Shown: positions 5,063 through 10,139 of the stretch, in pieces
Position numbering within the stretch: the stretch's first letter is position 1
Layout: each line of letters begins with the position of its first letter
NCBI GenBank assembly: GCA_003155465.1
Contig: PMCR01000343.1
Location: 9,800 to 25,323 of the forward strand
Reading direction: 5' to 3'
Origin: Myxococcales bacterium
GTDB lineage: Bacteria > Myxococcota > Polyangia > Fen-1088
Length of the DNA stretch: 15,524 nt
Notes under the pieces: generated by a model
Told to the model about the DNA's origin: nothing
What the model saw: the letters and a program-made list of their open reading frames with translations, nothing else
The model's database searches: none
Translations under genes and position numbers: made by a program

Positions 5063-5794
5063 ATGCGAGCAAACGGCAGTCACGCACCGCTTACCACCAA
5101 GATCGACATTCACGACAAGGAAGGCCGGAAAATCGGCGAGAAAGAGGTCGTCACCTACGCCGGCATCCTGGCGCTGGCCCATGACGAGGGGCTCCGCTCC
5201 ATCGTCACGAAGCTCGTCCAGGTGCCCACCAAAGAGAACGGCACGGTGGCCATCGTCACGGCCGTGGTCCGCACCAACCGCGGCGTGTTCACCGCGATCG
5301 GCGACGCCAACCCGGGCAACGTGAACCGCAAGATCGCGGCGCACATCATCCGGATGGCTGAGACGAGAGCCAAAGCAAGGGCGCTTCGGGACGCGATCGA
5401 TGTTGGTACCGTGGCGCTCGAAGAGCTGGGCGATCTAGTCGAGGAAGAGCTGTTGGCCGAGCCAACCAGCCAGCCCCAACAACCACCGGCGGCGGCGCGA
5501 GCGGCAACCGCCGCACCAACCTCGGCGACTAACCCGGCGAACGACAACCGCGGGGCGCCCTCCTCTGGCCCGATCTTCGCGGCCATGACCGATGCCCAGC
5601 GCCGGATGCTCTTCCGCCTGGCCACCGAGCGCGGCATCGCGCCCGAGAACGCCAACGCCTGGCTCCTGGGCCAGTTGAAGGTGTCCGATCTGAGGGCACT
5701 GTCTCGCTCAACCGCGAGCGAGGCCATCGATCGGCTCAAGAACGGCAAGCCCAACGGCACTGGTGGCAACGGCGCGAGCGCAGGAGTAGCGTGA
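5063..5794 (+). CDS. Putative single-strand annealing protein (Rad52/Sak-like)
   Basis: The protein has 243 residues in three parts. Residues 11-125 form a compact core with VPTKENGTVAIVTAVVRT (54-71), GVFTAIGDANPGNVN (74-88) and HIIRMAETRAKARALRDAI (94-112). A Pro/Ala/Gln-rich linker covers about 132-172. A C-terminal helical domain (176-226) reads TDAQRRMLFRLATERG followed by LSRSTASEAIDRL. A strand core followed by an Arg-rich MAETRA-type helix and a small C-terminal helical domain is the pattern of phage annealing proteins. Its stop overlaps the ATG of a Cas4-like nuclease, giving the classic annealase-exonuclease pair. It would anneal resected single strands during element recombination or replication. 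The family assignment is by pattern and context, without direct homology proof. The ATG at 5063 has only a weak upstream purine run. Confidence 0.6.
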   Translation: MRANGSHAPLTTKIDIHDKEGRKIGEKEVVTYAGILALAHDEGLRSIVTKLVQVPTKENGTVAIVTAVVRTNRGVFTAIGDANPGNVNRKIAAHIIRMAETRAKARALRDAIDVGTVALEELGDLVEEELLAEPTSQPQQPPAAARAATAAPTSATNPANDNRGAPSSGPIFAAMTDAQRRMLFRLATERGIAPENANAWLLGQLKVSDLRALSRSTASEAIDRLKNGKPNGTGGNGASAGVA

Positions 5795-6636
5795 TGGGGA
5801 CCGCGGTTCCGCACCTGAGCGCGTCCCGGATCTCGCTATATCTCCAGTGTCCGCGCAAGTACGCCTTCCGCTATGTGGAGGGCGTCGTTGTGCCTTGGAA
5901 GTCGGCGAACCTGGCGTTTGGCTCGGCCGTCCATGGGGCTCTCCAGACCTTCCACGAGAAACTCATGGAGGGCCAGAAGTCTACGGCGGACGAGATCGCG
6001 CGCCTCTTCGTCTCGGACTGGTACGCCCAACTCGTCGACGAGATCCGGTTCAAGGATGGTGACGACGCCAACTCGGTTCGTCTCATGGGCGAGGCCTTGG
6101 TCCGCCTCTATGTAGAAGGTCACCAAGACCTCAGTGTGGTGGCGGTGGAGTCCGGCTTTCAGATTCCTCTCGCCGACCCGGCCACCGGTGAAATCCTTGG
6201 CCCCGACCTCAAGGGGTTCTTCGACCTGATACTCAAAGGTGACACCATCGTCGAGCTGAAGACCGCGGCCAAGGCATACGATCAGGGCACGCTGGCCCGA
6301 CACATCCAGCTGACCAGCTACCGCTACGCGTACGCTCAGCTTCACAAACGCGATGCGACCCTCAAGGTCACGGCGCTGCTCAAGCAGCGTAAGCCGCGCG
6401 TCGAGACATACGAGGCGGTTCGCACCAAGGAGGACGACGCCTGGTTCGTCTACCTTGCCGTCGAGGCCAACCGGGGCATCGAGGCGGGCATCTTCCCGCC
6501 GTCGCCGTCGTTCCTCTGCGGCGACTGCGAGTACGCAGACCACTGCCGGAAGTGGCGAGGGTCAGCCAACACGAATCGCAAGCATGACGATCACCCACAT
6601 CATCCAGTCGCCGCACCTGCTGCCGTGGCCGCGTGA
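5794..6636 (+). CDS. Cas4/RecB-like PD-(D/E)XK nuclease with Fe-S cysteines
   Basis: The protein has 280 residues. It opens with HLSASRISLYLQCPRKYAFRY (first cluster Cys, C19), typical of the PDDEXK_1 (PF12705) group. The catalytic core is visible: GFFDLIL with D144, IVELKT with E154 and K156, and QLTSY with Q172 and Y176. The C-terminus has C242, C245 and C251 (CGDCEYADHC), which with C19 make the four-cysteine set of Cas4 and AddB nucleases that holds a 4Fe-4S cluster. The expected activity is resection of DNA ends to single strands. The start ATG shares one base with the stop of the annealing-protein gene, and AGGAG (5782-5786) sits 7 nt before it; GTG 5791 is an alternative. No cas1 or cas2 lies nearby, so a CRISPR role is unlikely. 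Confidence 0.85.
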   Translation: MGTAVPHLSASRISLYLQCPRKYAFRYVEGVVVPWKSANLAFGSAVHGALQTFHEKLMEGQKSTADEIARLFVSDWYAQLVDEIRFKDGDDANSVRLMGEALVRLYVEGHQDLSVVAVESGFQIPLADPATGEILGPDLKGFFDLILKGDTIVELKTAAKAYDQGTLARHIQLTSYRYAYAQLHKRDATLKVTALLKQRKPRVETYEAVRTKEDDAWFVYLAVEANRGIEAGIFPPSPSFLCGDCEYADHCRKWRGSANTNRKHDDHPHHPVAAPAAVAA

Positions 6637-6646
6637 AACCGAGAAT

Positions 6647-6677
6647 GCCCAGGGATTCCTCGCTGGAGTCCCTGGGC
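6647..6677 (+). terminator. Strong 13-bp hairpin after the nuclease gene
   Basis: The arms GCCCAGGGATTCC (6647-6659) and GGAGTCCCTGGGC (6665-6677) pair along 13 bp with one G-T wobble and a 5-nt loop, starting 10 nt after the nuclease stop. The bases after it (CGCTCCTTCC) are only pyrimidine-rich, so it may be a weak terminator, an mRNA 3'-end stabiliser or an attenuator before the leader that follows. Confidence 0.5.
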
Positions 6678-6680
6678 CGC

Positions 6681-6750
6681 TCCTTCCTCCCGCCTGTCCA
6701 TAGGCGCCGGAATGGTTCGGGTTCCGACGACGTCGGCGAAGGCCGGAGCA
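6681..6750 (+). promoter_or_regulatory. Structured leader, copy A (three hairpins)
   Basis: This matches copy B (7350-7421) at 49 of 57 aligned columns over its first 56 nt. Hairpin 1 is CGCCT/AGGCG (6691-6695 with 6702-6706). Hairpin 2 closes on a TGG loop (arms 6706-6712 and 6716-6722, with one G-G mismatch and a G-T pair). A conserved TCCGACGA linker follows, then hairpin 3, TCGGC/GCCGG with a GAAG loop (6733-6746). The end runs into GGAG-CAGG and an ATG at 6753, so the hairpins abut a translation start as in copy B. I propose a cis-acting RNA element. Confidence 0.55.
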
Positions 6751-6752
6751 GG

Positions 6753-6836
6753 ATGATCCATCTTTGCAGCTTCAGCAGGTCGCACACTCCGATAGTTTCC
6801 ACAACCACTGTGCCCGGCGAAACAAATCACCACTGA
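6753..6836 (+). CDS. Possible 27-residue leader peptide
   Basis: This short frame begins MIHLCSFSRSHTPIV and starts right after structured leader copy A, with GGAG 4 nt before the ATG, which is a tight spacing. Apart from its position after the leader, nothing shows that it is translated. It could be a leader peptide for the gene at 6912 or a chance frame. Confidence 0.2.
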   Translation: MIHLCSFSRSHTPIVSTTTVPGETNHH

Positions 6837-6911
6837 ACGCGTGTTCGTCTCGAATCTCGAAAGGGCGCTGAAGATCGACACGCGATTGACGCGCAGGAAA
6901 GGAAGTGAATC

Positions 6912-7172
6912 ATGGCCTACGTCGTAGGCATTCTCAGCGAAGAAGAAGAGCGTGTTCTTGGTTCCCGTGGCTGGGATGTCGAGCCCGCTCCCCGCGAACT
7001 CGTTCCCGAAGACGCGGACACCAGCGCACCAGAATCGCAACGAAACCACTTCAAGATGGTTTGGGTCGACACCTCTATGTTTCAGATCATGAACGGCCCC
7101 GACTGGGACAAGCGAACGGCAGCCAACGAAAACGGCAGCGGGGATTACCGTGCCGACGGTCAGCGTGACTGA
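6912..7172 (+). CDS. Small acidic hypothetical protein
   Basis: The product has 86 residues, beginning MAYVVGILSEEEERVLGSRG and including a folded-looking stretch MVWVDTSMFQIMNGPDWDKR at about 49-68. The Glu-rich start and the conserved-looking GPDW segment suggest a real small protein of mobile elements, but I do not recognise a family. The GGAAAGGAAG stretch (6896-6905) gives a good ribosome-binding site before the ATG. The frame ends at TGA 7170-7172; just past this stop it continues open with a Cys/His-rich stretch (see 7173-7259). Structured leader copy A lies about 160 nt upstream. Confidence 0.6.
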   Translation: MAYVVGILSEEEERVLGSRGWDVEPAPRELVPEDADTSAPESQRNHFKMVWVDTSMFQIMNGPDWDKRTAANENGSGDYRADGQRD

Positions 7173-7259
7173 TGTTGTGGTCCGCACACGCAGAGTGAGG
7201 ATGCCACCTGTCCGAACTGCGGGGGACGCTTGAAACGCCGCCGCCGCAGTCCAGTAGGA
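7173..7259 (+). pseudogene. Zinc-knuckle-like reading frame after an in-frame TGA
   Basis: In the frame of the preceding small gene, immediately after its TGA, the DNA reads CCGPHTQSEDATCPNCGGRL followed by KRRRRS. The spacing Cys-x-x-His then Cys-x-x-Cys, with Gly and basic residues after it, is like a small zinc-binding module. No ATG, GTG or TTG lies between the TGA and the cysteines. It may be a remnant of a longer protein, a readthrough extension or a separate gene damaged by mutation. The open frame continues into structured leader B, so the real end is unclear. Confidence 0.25.
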
Positions 7260-7349
7260 CCAACAGAACCTCGAACGGCCCCGGCGACGCGAATCACCGC
7301 TCGTGTTTTCGGGGCCTCCACCTTTTGCATCGAGGATGACATCTCGCTG

Positions 7350-7421
7350 TCCTTCTCCCGCCTGCTCGTAGGCGCCCGAATGGTTCGGGCTCCGACGAAG
7401 CCGGCCTCGTGCCGGGAGGAG
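7350..7421 (+). promoter_or_regulatory. Structured leader, copy B (three hairpins) before the DUF932 gene
   Basis: Hairpin 1 is CGCCT/AGGCG (7359-7363 with 7370-7374). Hairpin 2 is a perfect 7-bp stem, GCCCGAA/TTCGGGC around TGG (7374-7390). Hairpin 3 is CCGGC/GCCGG around CTCGT (7401-7415). The Shine-Dalgarno GGGAGGAG (7414-7421) overlaps the foot of hairpin 3 and lies 7 nt before the ATG at 7429. Folding could therefore mask or expose the ribosome-binding site, which makes translational control of the DUF932 gene plausible. A further inverted repeat, GGCCCCG/CGGGGCC (7277-7283 with 7310-7316), lies upstream. Confidence 0.6.
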
Positions 7422-7428
7422 AATTGCA

Positions 7429-8484
7429 ATGTTCGCAGACGCCGCTCAGTCCATTTCACCGCCAGCTCTTTTCCATTCTCACGCCAATGAGCAGACCTTC
7501 GACGAGGTGTTCGACAAGGTCACCAGCCAGGCCGACCTGGCTCTCCCTGACCAGGTGCTGCCGCTCTCGCGCCTGCGCGCGACTACCGACGGATTCATCG
7601 ACGCGCCGGGGCTGGGCCAGCTCAGTCTCACGACCTGGAGCCGACAGCAGCTTGCCAATATCCTGGGTATTCGCTGGGACCGTTGGTTCGCCAGCGATCT
7701 CGTGGCTCCCGCTGACCGCGCCGGGGAGATCAACCGCCGCTTCCAGCGCAGCAACGGTACCTGGAAGATCCGGGCGCGTAACAAGGCAACCGATGAACCC
7801 GCCGCGGGCGATGCCGTGCTCCGCGCCTTCGTCTCCCCGACGTACGCCCCCATTGATGACCTGCCGGTCTTCGAGACGCTTCGTCGCGTTCTGCCCGGCC
7901 ATGTGGAGGAATTTCGGTTCGTCCGCCTCGATCTCACGCCGCAGTCCAGCCAGTACGCCGTGGTCAGTCTCGTTGAGGTGGACCTTGGCGTCAGAGGACC
8001 CGACCGTCACCGGAATGGGTTCCTCATTGCCAACTCGGAAGTGGGCGCCCGGTCGCTTTCCATCCTTACCTGGATTTGGCGACTGGTCTGCACGAACGGC
8101 ATGGTGGCTGCCGCCTCTCAACTGTTCCGCATGGTCCACCGCCGCCGCAAGGACGAGTCGCTCGATGGCCGTGTGGCAGAAGCATTCAAGCTCCTGCCCG
8201 AGAAGTGGAGCAGGGCCGAGGCGGTTCTGCGTCGTGCCCGGCAGGACACCGTCGACGATCCTGGTGCCGTCCTGGAGGTGCTCCTCGAAACCAACCCACA
8301 ACTGCACGCCATGTCCCAGGCCGTCTACGACGCCTTCGAGGAGGACCCCGAGCCGAACCGCTTCGGCATCGTCCAGTCGTTCACGCGGGCCGCCCAACGG
8401 TTCTCACCCGAGCGGCGCCTCATGCTGGAGGAGTTTGCGGGCGATGTGGCTGCCAGGGTCATGTCTCCGGCGGTGTCGCTTTGA
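7429..8484 (+). CDS. DUF932 domain protein (phage/plasmid-related)
   Basis: The protein has 351 residues and resembles the DUF932 family found on phages and plasmids. A first segment reads LPLSRLRATTDGFIDAPG and LTTWSRQQLANILGIRWDRW; then RAFVSPTYAPIDDLPVFETL; then a strand-rich middle with VVSLVEVDLG, IANSEVGARSLSILTWIWRL and CTNGMV; and a helical C-terminal third (HRRRKDESLDGRVAEAFKLL and onward). The order and motif spacing fit a full-length member. The biochemical role is unknown; members are usually strongly expressed accessory proteins of mobile elements. The start is secure: GGGAGGAG lies 7 nt before ATG 7429. A three-hairpin leader directly precedes it, and the next gene overlaps its stop, so it heads a small cassette of three genes. 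Confidence 0.8.
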   Translation: MFADAAQSISPPALFHSHANEQTFDEVFDKVTSQADLALPDQVLPLSRLRATTDGFIDAPGLGQLSLTTWSRQQLANILGIRWDRWFASDLVAPADRAGEINRRFQRSNGTWKIRARNKATDEPAAGDAVLRAFVSPTYAPIDDLPVFETLRRVLPGHVEEFRFVRLDLTPQSSQYAVVSLVEVDLGVRGPDRHRNGFLIANSEVGARSLSILTWIWRLVCTNGMVAAASQLFRMVHRRRKDESLDGRVAEAFKLLPEKWSRAEAVLRRARQDTVDDPGAVLEVLLETNPQLHAMSQAVYDAFEEDPEPNRFGIVQSFTRAAQRFSPERRLMLEEFAGDVAARVMSPAVSL

Positions 8485-8975
8485 TCCGGCACGATCCCTA
8501 CGCGGTTTCGCCGCCGGGGGAGCCGTTCGACTACATCGTCGACGACGAACCGCTCAGGCGGGCACCGCCTGGCAGCCCAACGCTGCTTGAGACCGCGCAC
8601 TCGGCGCTCCGGCTTGCACCGGATTCGCTTTTCCGCAACTGGCGCAACGAGTGCGTGACGATCCGCGAGGAGATTGGGCTCGTCCACGGCCTGGGTCCCG
8701 TGGCGGTCCTGCACATCAATGGCGCGATCTTCCTCTACCCGCGCGGGTTCGGTGCCGATGTCCTCGATTTCGAGGCCACGGTCATCGATCCGGCGGAGGA
8801 GGCGATCGTTTCGGTAGGTGTGGGCGGTGCTCATCGCGCGCCTGTCCAGCGCAAGCTGGCCAAGGTGCTCGACTGGTATCGCACAGAGATCAAGCTCCGG
8901 GACAACAACTCGTCACCGCTCCTCACGGTCTTCGAGCTGTGGACCGACGGCCGGCCACTAAGGCGGGTGTCATGA
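8481..8975 (+). CDS. Hypothetical protein coupled to the DUF932 gene
   Basis: The product has 164 residues and an unrecognised family. I place the start at TTG 8481, overlapping the DUF932 stop as TTGA, because it begins where the folded-looking sequence begins (IRHDPYAVSPPGEPFDYIVD); there is no nearer ATG or GTG in frame. Residues about 30-60 look helical, and 65-130 look strand-rich (GPVAVLHINGAIFLYPRGFG, then DFEATVIDP). The C-terminal part has KLAKVLDWYRTEIKL and TVFELWTDG. There are no signal or membrane segments. It ends in an ATGA overlap with the next small gene, so the three form one translational unit. A partner role with DUF932 is inferred from this coupling. Confidence 0.65.
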   Translation: MIRHDPYAVSPPGEPFDYIVDDEPLRRAPPGSPTLLETAHSALRLAPDSLFRNWRNECVTIREEIGLVHGLGPVAVLHINGAIFLYPRGFGADVLDFEATVIDPAEEAIVSVGVGGAHRAPVQRKLAKVLDWYRTEIKLRDNNSSPLLTVFELWTDGRPLRRVS

Positions 8976-9157
8976 AGACGCGCGTCCAGAGCATCAAGCT
9001 CCCGCGCGGCGACGTGCGGGAGTTGCGGATCTACCGCAACAAGCGCACGACCCGGCTCGTCGTCTATGACGAAGACCTGGCCGTGCCGCTCATCAAAGCC
9101 CAGCTCGGCACGCCCGAGCGCGAAGCGCTCAGGAAGGCGCTGGGCAGGGACAAATGA
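8972..9157 (+). CDS. Small basic hypothetical protein
   Basis: The product has 61 residues, beginning MKTRVQSIKLPRGDVRELRI, with a strand-rich Arg/Lys-rich first half (RNKRTTRLVVYDEDLAVPL) and a helical end (TPEREALRKALGRDK). It is compact and positively charged, which would suit nucleic-acid binding, but no family is recognised. The start overlaps the previous stop (ATGA), and AAGGCGG lies about 5 nt before it. It is the last gene of the run, 18 nt before a strong intrinsic terminator. Confidence 0.6.
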   Translation: MKTRVQSIKLPRGDVRELRIYRNKRTTRLVVYDEDLAVPLIKAQLGTPEREALRKALGRDK

Positions 9158-9251: not shown

Positions 9252-9419
9252 ATGCTCGAACACATCGCCGCGCTCCATGACGTCGTCCATGGTTTCTGCA
9301 TGCTTGCATCCTGGTCATTCGCGATGGGCTACCGGGCCAGGGGAACGGCGTGCGTGGCTCGGGCAGCGGAGATCATAGTGTACCTTCAACAATTCTCTTC
9401 CTTGCCGAAGCCGCCGTGA
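9252..9419 (+). CDS. Possible 55-residue small membrane protein
   Basis: The frame begins MLEHIAALHDVVHGFCMLAS and continues WSFAMGYRARGTACVARAAE, ending IIVYLQQFSSLPKPP. The middle could form one short hydrophobic helix followed by a basic turn, as in small inner-membrane proteins. Only a weak CAGG lies before the ATG. It fills most of the 309-nt gap between the terminator and the next confident gene, in which I see little else. It may be a chance frame; its amino-acid make-up is less Arg/Pro-rich than the obvious shadows nearby. Confidence 0.3.
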   Translation: MLEHIAALHDVVHGFCMLASWSFAMGYRARGTACVARAAEIIVYLQQFSSLPKPP

Positions 9420-9466
9420 CCAGGGCCTGGATTCCGAAATGGGAGCGTGAGATTCTTTGGAGCGAA

Positions 9467-9712
9467 ATGCGAACCATCAAACGCTACTCGAACCGCAAGC
9501 TGTATGACACTCAAGAAAGCCACTATGTCACCCTGCAACAGATCGCCGGGCTGATCCGCAACGGCGACGAGGTCCGGGTGATCGACAAAGACACCCAGCG
9601 CGACCTGACTTCGGCGACGCTGGCTCAGATCATCTTCGAGGAGGAGAGGCGCGGGCCGCAGCTACCGACATCGGGGCTTCGCCAGATCATTCAGGCCGGG
9701 CGGATTCCGTAG
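9467..9712 (+). CDS. PHA-synthesis-regulator-type DNA-binding protein
   Basis: The product has 81 residues starting at ATG 9467, and nearly all of it is the PHB/PHA accumulation regulator DNA-binding domain (PHB_acc_N): IKRYSNRKLYDTQESHYVTL, then IAGLIRNGDEVRVIDKDTQR, then DLTSATLAQIIFEEE and LPTSGLRQII. PhaR-type repressors are normally about twice this length and have C-terminal domains absent here, so this is a short, domain-only form. GGAG (9459-9462) precedes the start with tight spacing. The frame is open upstream to 9350, but that sequence does not fit the domain. No PHA genes are nearby, so regulation of polymer storage cannot be claimed; a general small regulator is the safer reading. 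Confidence 0.8.
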   Translation: MRTIKRYSNRKLYDTQESHYVTLQQIAGLIRNGDEVRVIDKDTQRDLTSATLAQIIFEEERRGPQLPTSGLRQIIQAGRIP

Positions 9713-9803
9713 CGCCCCAGCGGCCGACCCCGCGAGTAGGCTTGGAGGGCGTTTTTCGCGGATCCAACGTGGAGGCCCGCCGGACGCCCACAAGATCGCT
9801 CGC

Positions 9804-10139
9804 CTACTGGTGTAGACGAGATTCCGACGCGGCTACACCAGCCGCTTCCGGCCTCTTCCCGCGCTCCTGGTCGATCCGCGCCGCGAGCGCGGTGCTAGCC
9901 TTGAAGTGGGGCAAGCGCTTCGGCTTGACCTCTACGATCCGGCCGGTCCGAGGATTCCGTCCCCTATACGCCCTGTAGCTCCGAACCTGGAATGTCCCGA
10001 ACCCACGAATTTCGATCTTCTCGCTCCGACGGATGGACTGCTCCATGCAGTCGAAGATGGTGTTCACCAGCAACTCGGCCTGAGCTTTGGGCATCTTCCT
10101 CTTCTGGGAGATGCTTTCGATCAGATCGGCGCGGGTCAT
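9804..10139 (-). CDS. HU/IHF-family DNA-binding protein
   Basis: The protein has 111 residues and a complete HU/IHF fold: N-terminal helices from TRADLIESISQKRKM, then KIEIRGFGTFQVRSYRAYRG (41-60), the DNA-intercalating RNPRTG with Pro63, and a closing PHFKASTALAARI. It binds and bends DNA as a dimer and helps form nucleoprotein complexes, including those of integrases and origins. It is closest to the IHF-beta/HU-beta side by the RNPRTG context. The last 17 residues or so extend beyond the usual 90-95 and look disordered. ACGGAG lies 8 nt before the ATG. It lies 16 nt downstream of the basic hypothetical gene on the same strand, so the two may be co-transcribed. Confidence 0.9.
   Translation of the reverse strand: MTRADLIESISQKRKMPKAQAELLVNTIFDCMEQSIRRSEKIEIRGFGTFQVRSYRAYRGRNPRTGRIVEVKPKRLPHFKASTALAARIDQERGKRPEAAGVAASESRLHQ

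Follow-up and report, generated by a model that had tools for sequence, protein, structure and literature searches.

A predicted Shine-Dalgarno-hiding hairpin with a recurring A-YGG-U cap in the leaders of DUF932 and other genes of putative Myxococcota mobile elements

Introduction

The ribosome-binding site of one mobile-element gene reportedly lies within a hairpin, as is predicted for the leader described here; that case concerns a single gene, and we know of no shared cap for its hairpin. For phage T4 gene 43, the published account describes an operator that comprises a conserved-loop hairpin, some 40 nt ahead of the start codon, and sequence at the ribosome-binding site (PMC3014915). Sites of the CsrA/RsmE regulators are given as ANGGAN or GGA loops near the Shine-Dalgarno sequence (PMC7652899), and iron responsive elements are described as stems of fixed length that are capped by a conserved (pseudo-)triloop and occur in the mRNAs of several genes with related functions (PMC8466369).

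Here we analysed a stretch of 15,524 nucleotides of Myxococcales DNA (the window), in which a repeat occurs twice, as copy A and copy B, the latter before a gene of the DUF932 family (7429-8484, + strand like all window features given below; 351 aa; PF06067, E = 7.5e-10). Two marks of a Shine-Dalgarno-sequestering leader were found, namely predicted pairing of the Shine-Dalgarno sequence in copy B and in its close relative L121, and a cap that recurs in several leaders. By analogy, the T4 gene 43 operator would be the nearest system in principle. It differs in that, as described in that account, the reader is the gene's own product and a single gene is controlled, in that the loop is UAAC whereas the element leaders carry A-YGG-U, and in that the account does not place the Shine-Dalgarno sequence inside the hairpin, its predicted position in copy B (PMC3014915). 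CsrA/RsmE sites, as presented in the cited work, resemble our leaders in having a GG in a hairpin loop near the Shine-Dalgarno sequence and differ in the base that follows it, which is U in all eight leaders that pass the descriptor given below (PMC7652899). Since the loop is not ANGGAN and CsrA (PF02599) occurs in only one of five genomes with such leaders, which may be incomplete, CsrA is unlikely to be the reader. Iron responsive elements belong to animal mRNAs and are characterized in the cited description by an AGU pseudo-triloop and a bulged C, so that the likeness is one of principle only (PMC8466369). A description of this leader family was found neither in the literature searched, including the combination of DUF932 with RNA motifs, nor in Rfam.

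A repeated sequence and its predicted fold

The two copies, at 6687-6737 and 7355-7405, align without gaps at 86% identity, and copy B is the best placement of copy A elsewhere in the window (44/51 positions, with at most 31/51 reached in 200 base shuffles of the window). An earlier note on this DNA had counted 49 matches in 57 columns; over the spans it gave, both copies are present and match at 48 of 56. Its statement that coding does not link them stands: in two frames the amino acid is altered in 5/6 and 6/6 codons, and the third frame has a stop codon in both copies; no codon pattern is seen. A dispersed repeat of the REP or MITE kind, which the same note had named as a competing identity, was looked for in genome G001 and the genomes of the class, and none was found; in G001 a single match is strong, the other 20 having E ≥ 0.24. 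When 317 genomes of the class were searched under strict filters with R2, a model of the repeat, 16 of them had a match at E ≤ 0.1, compared with about 32 expected from chance alone, and only that in G001 was strong. By blastn against 266 loci, both copies found L121 and otherwise short matches only. When two sequence patterns were searched in viral contigs, the 33 matches of the second and their flanks had only the pattern in common. Rfam 15 gave no match for the window at the gathering score, for positions 6600-7450 at E ≤ 1, or for the loci L279, L284, L368, L280 and L332 at E ≤ 0.1. A match on a Streptomyces plasmid (E 0.7) was rejected, as it sits among unrelated genes.

Scanning genome contigs with a DUF932 profile yielded 66 loci, and the close relatives among them come from a single Myxococcales MAG. 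They are L121 (83%) and L122, the contig of which starts within the DUF932 gene. L121 is the sole close relative with leader DNA for comparison. The earlier note had drawn three successive hairpins in each copy; the minimum-energy fold is instead a single long imperfect hairpin, of -42.1 kcal/mol for copy B (7344-7440) and -41.9 for L121. In both, the three-hairpin structure reaches -23.2 kcal/mol. Over the leaders compared, this structure lies 15-19 kcal/mol above the minimum-energy fold, and it was rejected on these energies and on its pair probabilities. The first hairpin has a pair probability (P) of 0.000 in copy B, 0.007 in L121 and 0.26 in copy A, and the third of 0.011, 0.017 and 0.059, respectively. 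What survives is the second hairpin with its UGG loop (mean P over the six inner pairs 0.92 in copy B and L121, 0.51 in copy A), which appears in the new fold as a 7-bp apical stem with an A-UGG-U loop at 7374-7390.

According to the minimum-energy fold and the identity with L121, the leader of copy B extends from an anti-Shine-Dalgarno arm to the start codon of DUF932 (7352-7431). The arm, CUUCUCCC (7352-7359), is predicted to pair with and thereby hide the Shine-Dalgarno sequence of DUF932, GGGAGGAG (7414-7421), at pair probabilities of 0.99-1.0, and in copy B as in L121 the AUG is open in the predicted fold while GGGAGGAG is paired (P 0.9-1.0). Copy B (7343-7431) is more stable than its shuffles (z = -2.92). 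The L121 core alone is not (z = -0.64, 81/300), and with the strong preceding hairpin included the values are -4.62 for L121 and -2.97 for copy A. A GGCCCC...GGGGCC hairpin lies about 35 nt before copy B (7277-7316).

Each copy had been described as a leader RNA ending at a start codon, which is correct for copy B (ATG at 7429, DUF932) and incorrect for copy A, whose ATG at 6753 opens a 27-codon frame only. Nor is a second functional leader in copy A supported, given that its apical stem (6706-6722) combines the UGG loop with a G-G mismatch, that its Shine-Dalgarno sequence has changed and is lost, with the fold closing via other bases, and that copy A alone (6675-6756) is no more stable than shuffles (z = 0.18). 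This altered leader (6679-6749) is probably a relic that no longer works. Directly before it stands a strong 31-nt hairpin (6647-6677), overlooked in the earlier note, which also precedes the single leader of L121. Between the two copies lies a gene for a protein of 86 aa (6912-7172; six protein relatives, no family), flanked on one side by a leader without that Shine-Dalgarno sequence (copy A) and on the other by one retaining it (copy B); its start at 6912 has a purine-rich stretch of its own. We also noted a sigma-70-like promoter match, TTGACG-16-AATCAT (9/12), at 6886-6913 directly before this ORF, where shuffles average 0.1.

Predicted hiding of Shine-Dalgarno sequences in distant DUF932 leaders

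Within the class of L121's MAG, relatives of the window's DUF932 protein were found at E ≤ 1e-30 in 10 of 317 genomes (32-41% identity, G001 excepted), and a piece of the L332 protein had matches at E ≤ 1e-8 in 14 of 317; most DUF932 relatives of 59-95% identity are encoded on metagenome contigs. We assembled 20 DUF932 loci, counting the window and leaving out a second G001 copy that has no start. The distant leaders have no common sequence, and MAFFT gave no sensible alignment of full leaders from different genes. Several nevertheless share a plan, in which a strong hairpin is followed by a pyrimidine arm pairing the Shine-Dalgarno sequence and then by the start. The median probability that the Shine-Dalgarno sequence pairs upstream was 0.89 in 13 DUF932 leaders versus 0.23 in 47 control genes taken from the same contigs by rough gene calls (Mann-Whitney p = 6e-4; z against shuffles p = 7e-3); since copy B and L121, like L341 and L342, are near relatives, the 13 leaders are not independent. 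For single leaders the pairing z was only about 1 (-1.3 to 1.7), with L331 and L339 negative, and at L343, L126 and L365 such a leader, or an intergenic leader, was not seen.

The cap described below is present in six of the 20 DUF932 loci and absent from 14, of which five (L334, L335, L336, L338 and L370) seem by eye to hide the Shine-Dalgarno sequence beneath other loops. The hexaloops ACGCAC, AGUCUC, ACUCUC and ACCUUC were seen, again by eye, in the DUF932 leaders of L334, L336, L338 and L370. Such hexaloops on Shine-Dalgarno-hiding hairpins may represent a second loop class with a second specificity, as with phage repressors. In the NtrC-like genes of L334, L336 and L337 the Shine-Dalgarno sequence also pairs upstream in the predicted folds and the A-YGG-U cap is absent; L331 is unclear.

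A recurring A-YGG-U cap before element genes

An A-UGG-U or A-CGG-U loop, first seen by eye, ends a long hairpin in copy B, L121, L332 (before both DUF932 and an NtrC-like gene), L333 and L337. Some relatives share a whole architecture, comprising a hidden Shine-Dalgarno sequence and an apical stem of 6-8 bp with an A-[U/C]GG-U loop 36-48 nt before the start, and the cap precedes genes of four kinds: DUF932, NtrC-like, PD-(D/E)XK and vWA. When all triloops on stems of at least 6 bp were compared in 21 element loci, 10 of 14 A-YGG-U hairpins stood 25-60 nt before a Shine-Dalgarno sequence and start, versus 180 of 1870 with other triloops (p = 6e-8) and 2 of 14 with reverse-complement loops; two of the ten (L340 and L336) look spurious.

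We then defined a full descriptor, requiring a start 34-50 nt away, an ORF of at least 60 aa and a Shine-Dalgarno sequence paired upstream at P ≥ 0.6. With these limits, chosen after all eight members had been seen, 8 of 14 A-YGG-U hairpins pass in 248 kb of element loci versus 0 of 26 in 585 kb from elsewhere in five of these genomes (p = 4e-5); other triloops pass in 14 of 1890 cases in element loci and 29 of about 4850 in controls. The Shine-Dalgarno pairing probability of the eight members is 0.80-1.0. Five of them gave the idea, and for the three found after it (PD-(D/E)XK in L334, vWA in L332 and DUF932 in L378) the count is 3/9 versus 0/26 (p = 0.013; p = 5e-5 against other triloops). 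In 335 other loci (3.76 Mb, mostly viral) ten hairpins pass, all of them known members or their refetched copies from the same or near-identical contigs. Under looser limits, 10/77 element hairpins and 3/177 control hairpins pass, the relaxed loop and stem limits adding one weak element match (L343) and three control matches. All these counts rest on few independent leaders, on rough gene calls and on genomes that are possibly incomplete.

Two exact patterns were also searched in 14 genomes. The 51 loci inspected among the matches listed recovered the DUF932 leaders of L332 and L333 and yielded one new candidate, in G001, with a stem of 6 bp and P 0.69; at 19 further places, stems of at least 6 bp occurred in three and a fitting Shine-Dalgarno sequence and start, judged by eye, in none. 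In the searched DNA, such capped leaders were met only at element genes, bar this weaker candidate on another integrated element. The candidate (L423, G001:C103) is an A-CGG-U hairpin 40 nt before the start of a 1018-aa gene (L474:645-3701, - strand) that looks primase-polymerase-like by eye, with an integrase-like gene nearby (L474:6182-7441). A further match from the pattern search, at L430 (stem 5, 62-aa frame), looks like chance and was discarded.

The apical stem is exactly 7 bp long in six of the eight members, versus 24% of triloop stems of at least 6 bp (p = 0.004), with a mismatch beneath. Across eight apical stems, with copy A counted and the vWA leader left out, 96% of cells are paired, both sides have changed in six of seven pairs, and the covariation score is 0.99 versus at most 0.16 for slid versions. 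The expectation that relatives would keep the pairing while the sequence changes is thus borne out for the apical stem; because stems were a selection criterion, the test is partly circular and the covariation is supporting rather than independent evidence. Each of nine folded leaders forms one main hairpin over its core, a long interrupted duplex, with z from -0.64 (L121) to -5.68 (L334). In L337 and L378 the frame of the gene is open through the leader and an ATG stands in the loop, which leaves the start uncertain. Fold, hidden Shine-Dalgarno sequence, repeated loop and place before start codons are all results of computation.

Proposed mechanism and alternatives

With moderate confidence, we read copy B as the 5' leader of a DUF932 gene carried by a mobile element of Myxococcota and as a putative translational operator, in which a hidden Shine-Dalgarno sequence is combined with a cap that a trans-acting factor would recognise; the recurrence of this plan at several genes in related elements argues for an operator of this kind. 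The anti-Shine-Dalgarno arm would pair with the Shine-Dalgarno sequence, the helices beyond it would be interrupted, and the A-[U/C]GG-U triloop would sit on a final stem of roughly 7 bp. Folded in this way, the leader would bar ribosomes, so that translation would be off by default, and a trans-acting factor, probably element-coded, would read the conserved loop and set whether the hairpin stays shut. Both the control of translation in the cell and the factor itself are what we infer from the predicted structures. The earlier note had read a signal common to several genes from the A/B pair; such a signal is found in related elements, where different leaders carry the same loop, more than in the pair itself. 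A tentative extension, which we regard as a serious possibility somewhat short of an even chance, would be a regulon in which one RNA-binding factor silences NtrC-like activator, Cas4-like nuclease, DUF932 and vWA genes via A-YGG-U-capped hairpins and releases them jointly when the element moves or replicates. If true, key genes of little-studied myxobacterial mobile elements would have an RNA-level switch in common. The descriptor, with its loop, stem length, spacing and hidden Shine-Dalgarno sequence, is specific enough for finding more members, the capped hairpin could serve as bait for the factor controlling these elements, and the leader would offer a first handle on when DUF932 proteins are made.

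The hairpin might alternatively act in cis, as a guard that blocks read-through messages while a promoter inside the hairpin gives the gene a message of its own lacking the 5' arm, a principle found in some transposase genes. That the genes belong to mobile elements, and that in L121, L332 and L333 a strong hairpin immediately precedes the anti-Shine-Dalgarno arm, would suit a guard. It would not, however, require the conserved A-YGG-U loop or the stem of about 7 bp, and a promoter search limited to the sigma-70-like type found none in the window's leaders. We consider a guard unlikely.

Translational coupling, in which the hairpin would keep the gene closed and be melted by ribosomes reaching the end of an upstream frame, seems less likely again. 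It would fit two members: in L334 the PD-(D/E)XK leader lies inside the 3' end of an NtrC-like frame that crosses it and stops at +1 of the nuclease start, overlapping it, and L332 has a 163-aa frame that terminates at +1 of the vWA start. No frame, however, ends at the DUF932 start in the window or in L121, where the stops lie at +59 or far downstream, and since frames and stop places vary among members, coupling cannot be the common mechanism.

Slightly more doubtful than coupling is an RNase III site, whose cutting would free the Shine-Dalgarno sequence or start decay. All nine folded leaders do offer a long interrupted duplex, but such a site would not explain why the triloop is conserved and the stem length nearly fixed.

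We think it highly improbable that the two copies work as a recombination or cassette site, with the 86-aa gene inserted or lost between direct repeats, although the structure of L121 invites this reading. L121 has a single copy, which ends 23 nt before DUF932; its left flank, including the strong hairpin, matches that of copy A, its copy and right flank match copy B at 94%, and neither the 86-aa ORF nor the PD-(D/E)XK gene has a match there. As this is a single relative, however, insertion in the window and loss in L121 are not distinguishable, and the features that the leaders have in common (Shine-Dalgarno sequence, start and loop spacing) concern translation, with no dispersed copy found in G001. 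The cassette may describe the origin of the duplication rather than its function.

Least probable of all is a DNA operator bound as an inverted repeat by a dimeric repressor. Every apical stem does form an inverted repeat around three central bases, but the half-sites are not the same at three genes that share a contig (L332), and G-U pairs occur in them, which argues for RNA and against a DNA operator; the recurring features are pairing, loop and spacing from the start codon.

Gene content of the elements

The translational-operator reading places these leaders on mobile elements, and we take the window and the loci of its relatives to be related elements of this sort. The window encodes Replic_Relax, a coupling/HerA-type ATPase, a PD-(D/E)XK nuclease and DUF932. 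The nuclease gene lies before copy A (5791-6636; PF12705, E = 9e-31) and is Cas4-like, below the NCBIfam cut-off. L332 encodes Replic_Relax, a sigma-54 activator and a ParB/RepB-like protein. L331, L332, L333, L334, L336, L337 and L123-L125 carry the sigma-54 activator motif GAFTGA; the window and L121 lack it, so that the window's own element offers DUF932 as the sole target here.

Among the smaller proteins of the window, those of 164 aa (8481-9157) and 86 aa had relatives in a protein search and belonged to no family, and a family search with the 61-aa protein gave none. Structure prediction for the 86-aa and 164-aa proteins gave low confidence (mean pLDDT 60), and no PDB match at E ≤ 0.001 was found with the 164-aa model. 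Another DUF932 gene, a strong match to PF06067, lies on G001:C412 (L326) and is followed by a 42% relative of the 164-aa protein. In L121 the coupling-protein similarity (6413-9007) is split into pieces at 6413-6575 and 7724-9007, between which a 366-aa minus-strand ORF (6576-7676) stands as if inserted. L123 and L125 are near-identical element copies at both ends of JALHOH010000001.1 (683,555 bases), a contig labelled Patescibacteria; these copies are close to a Deltaproteobacteria MAG contig (L124), which points to either wrong binning or a two-copy element. In the window, the element genes are followed at 9350-10139 by a gene of the PHB-accumulation-regulator type and an HU-like gene, possibly host genes marking the right border of the element.
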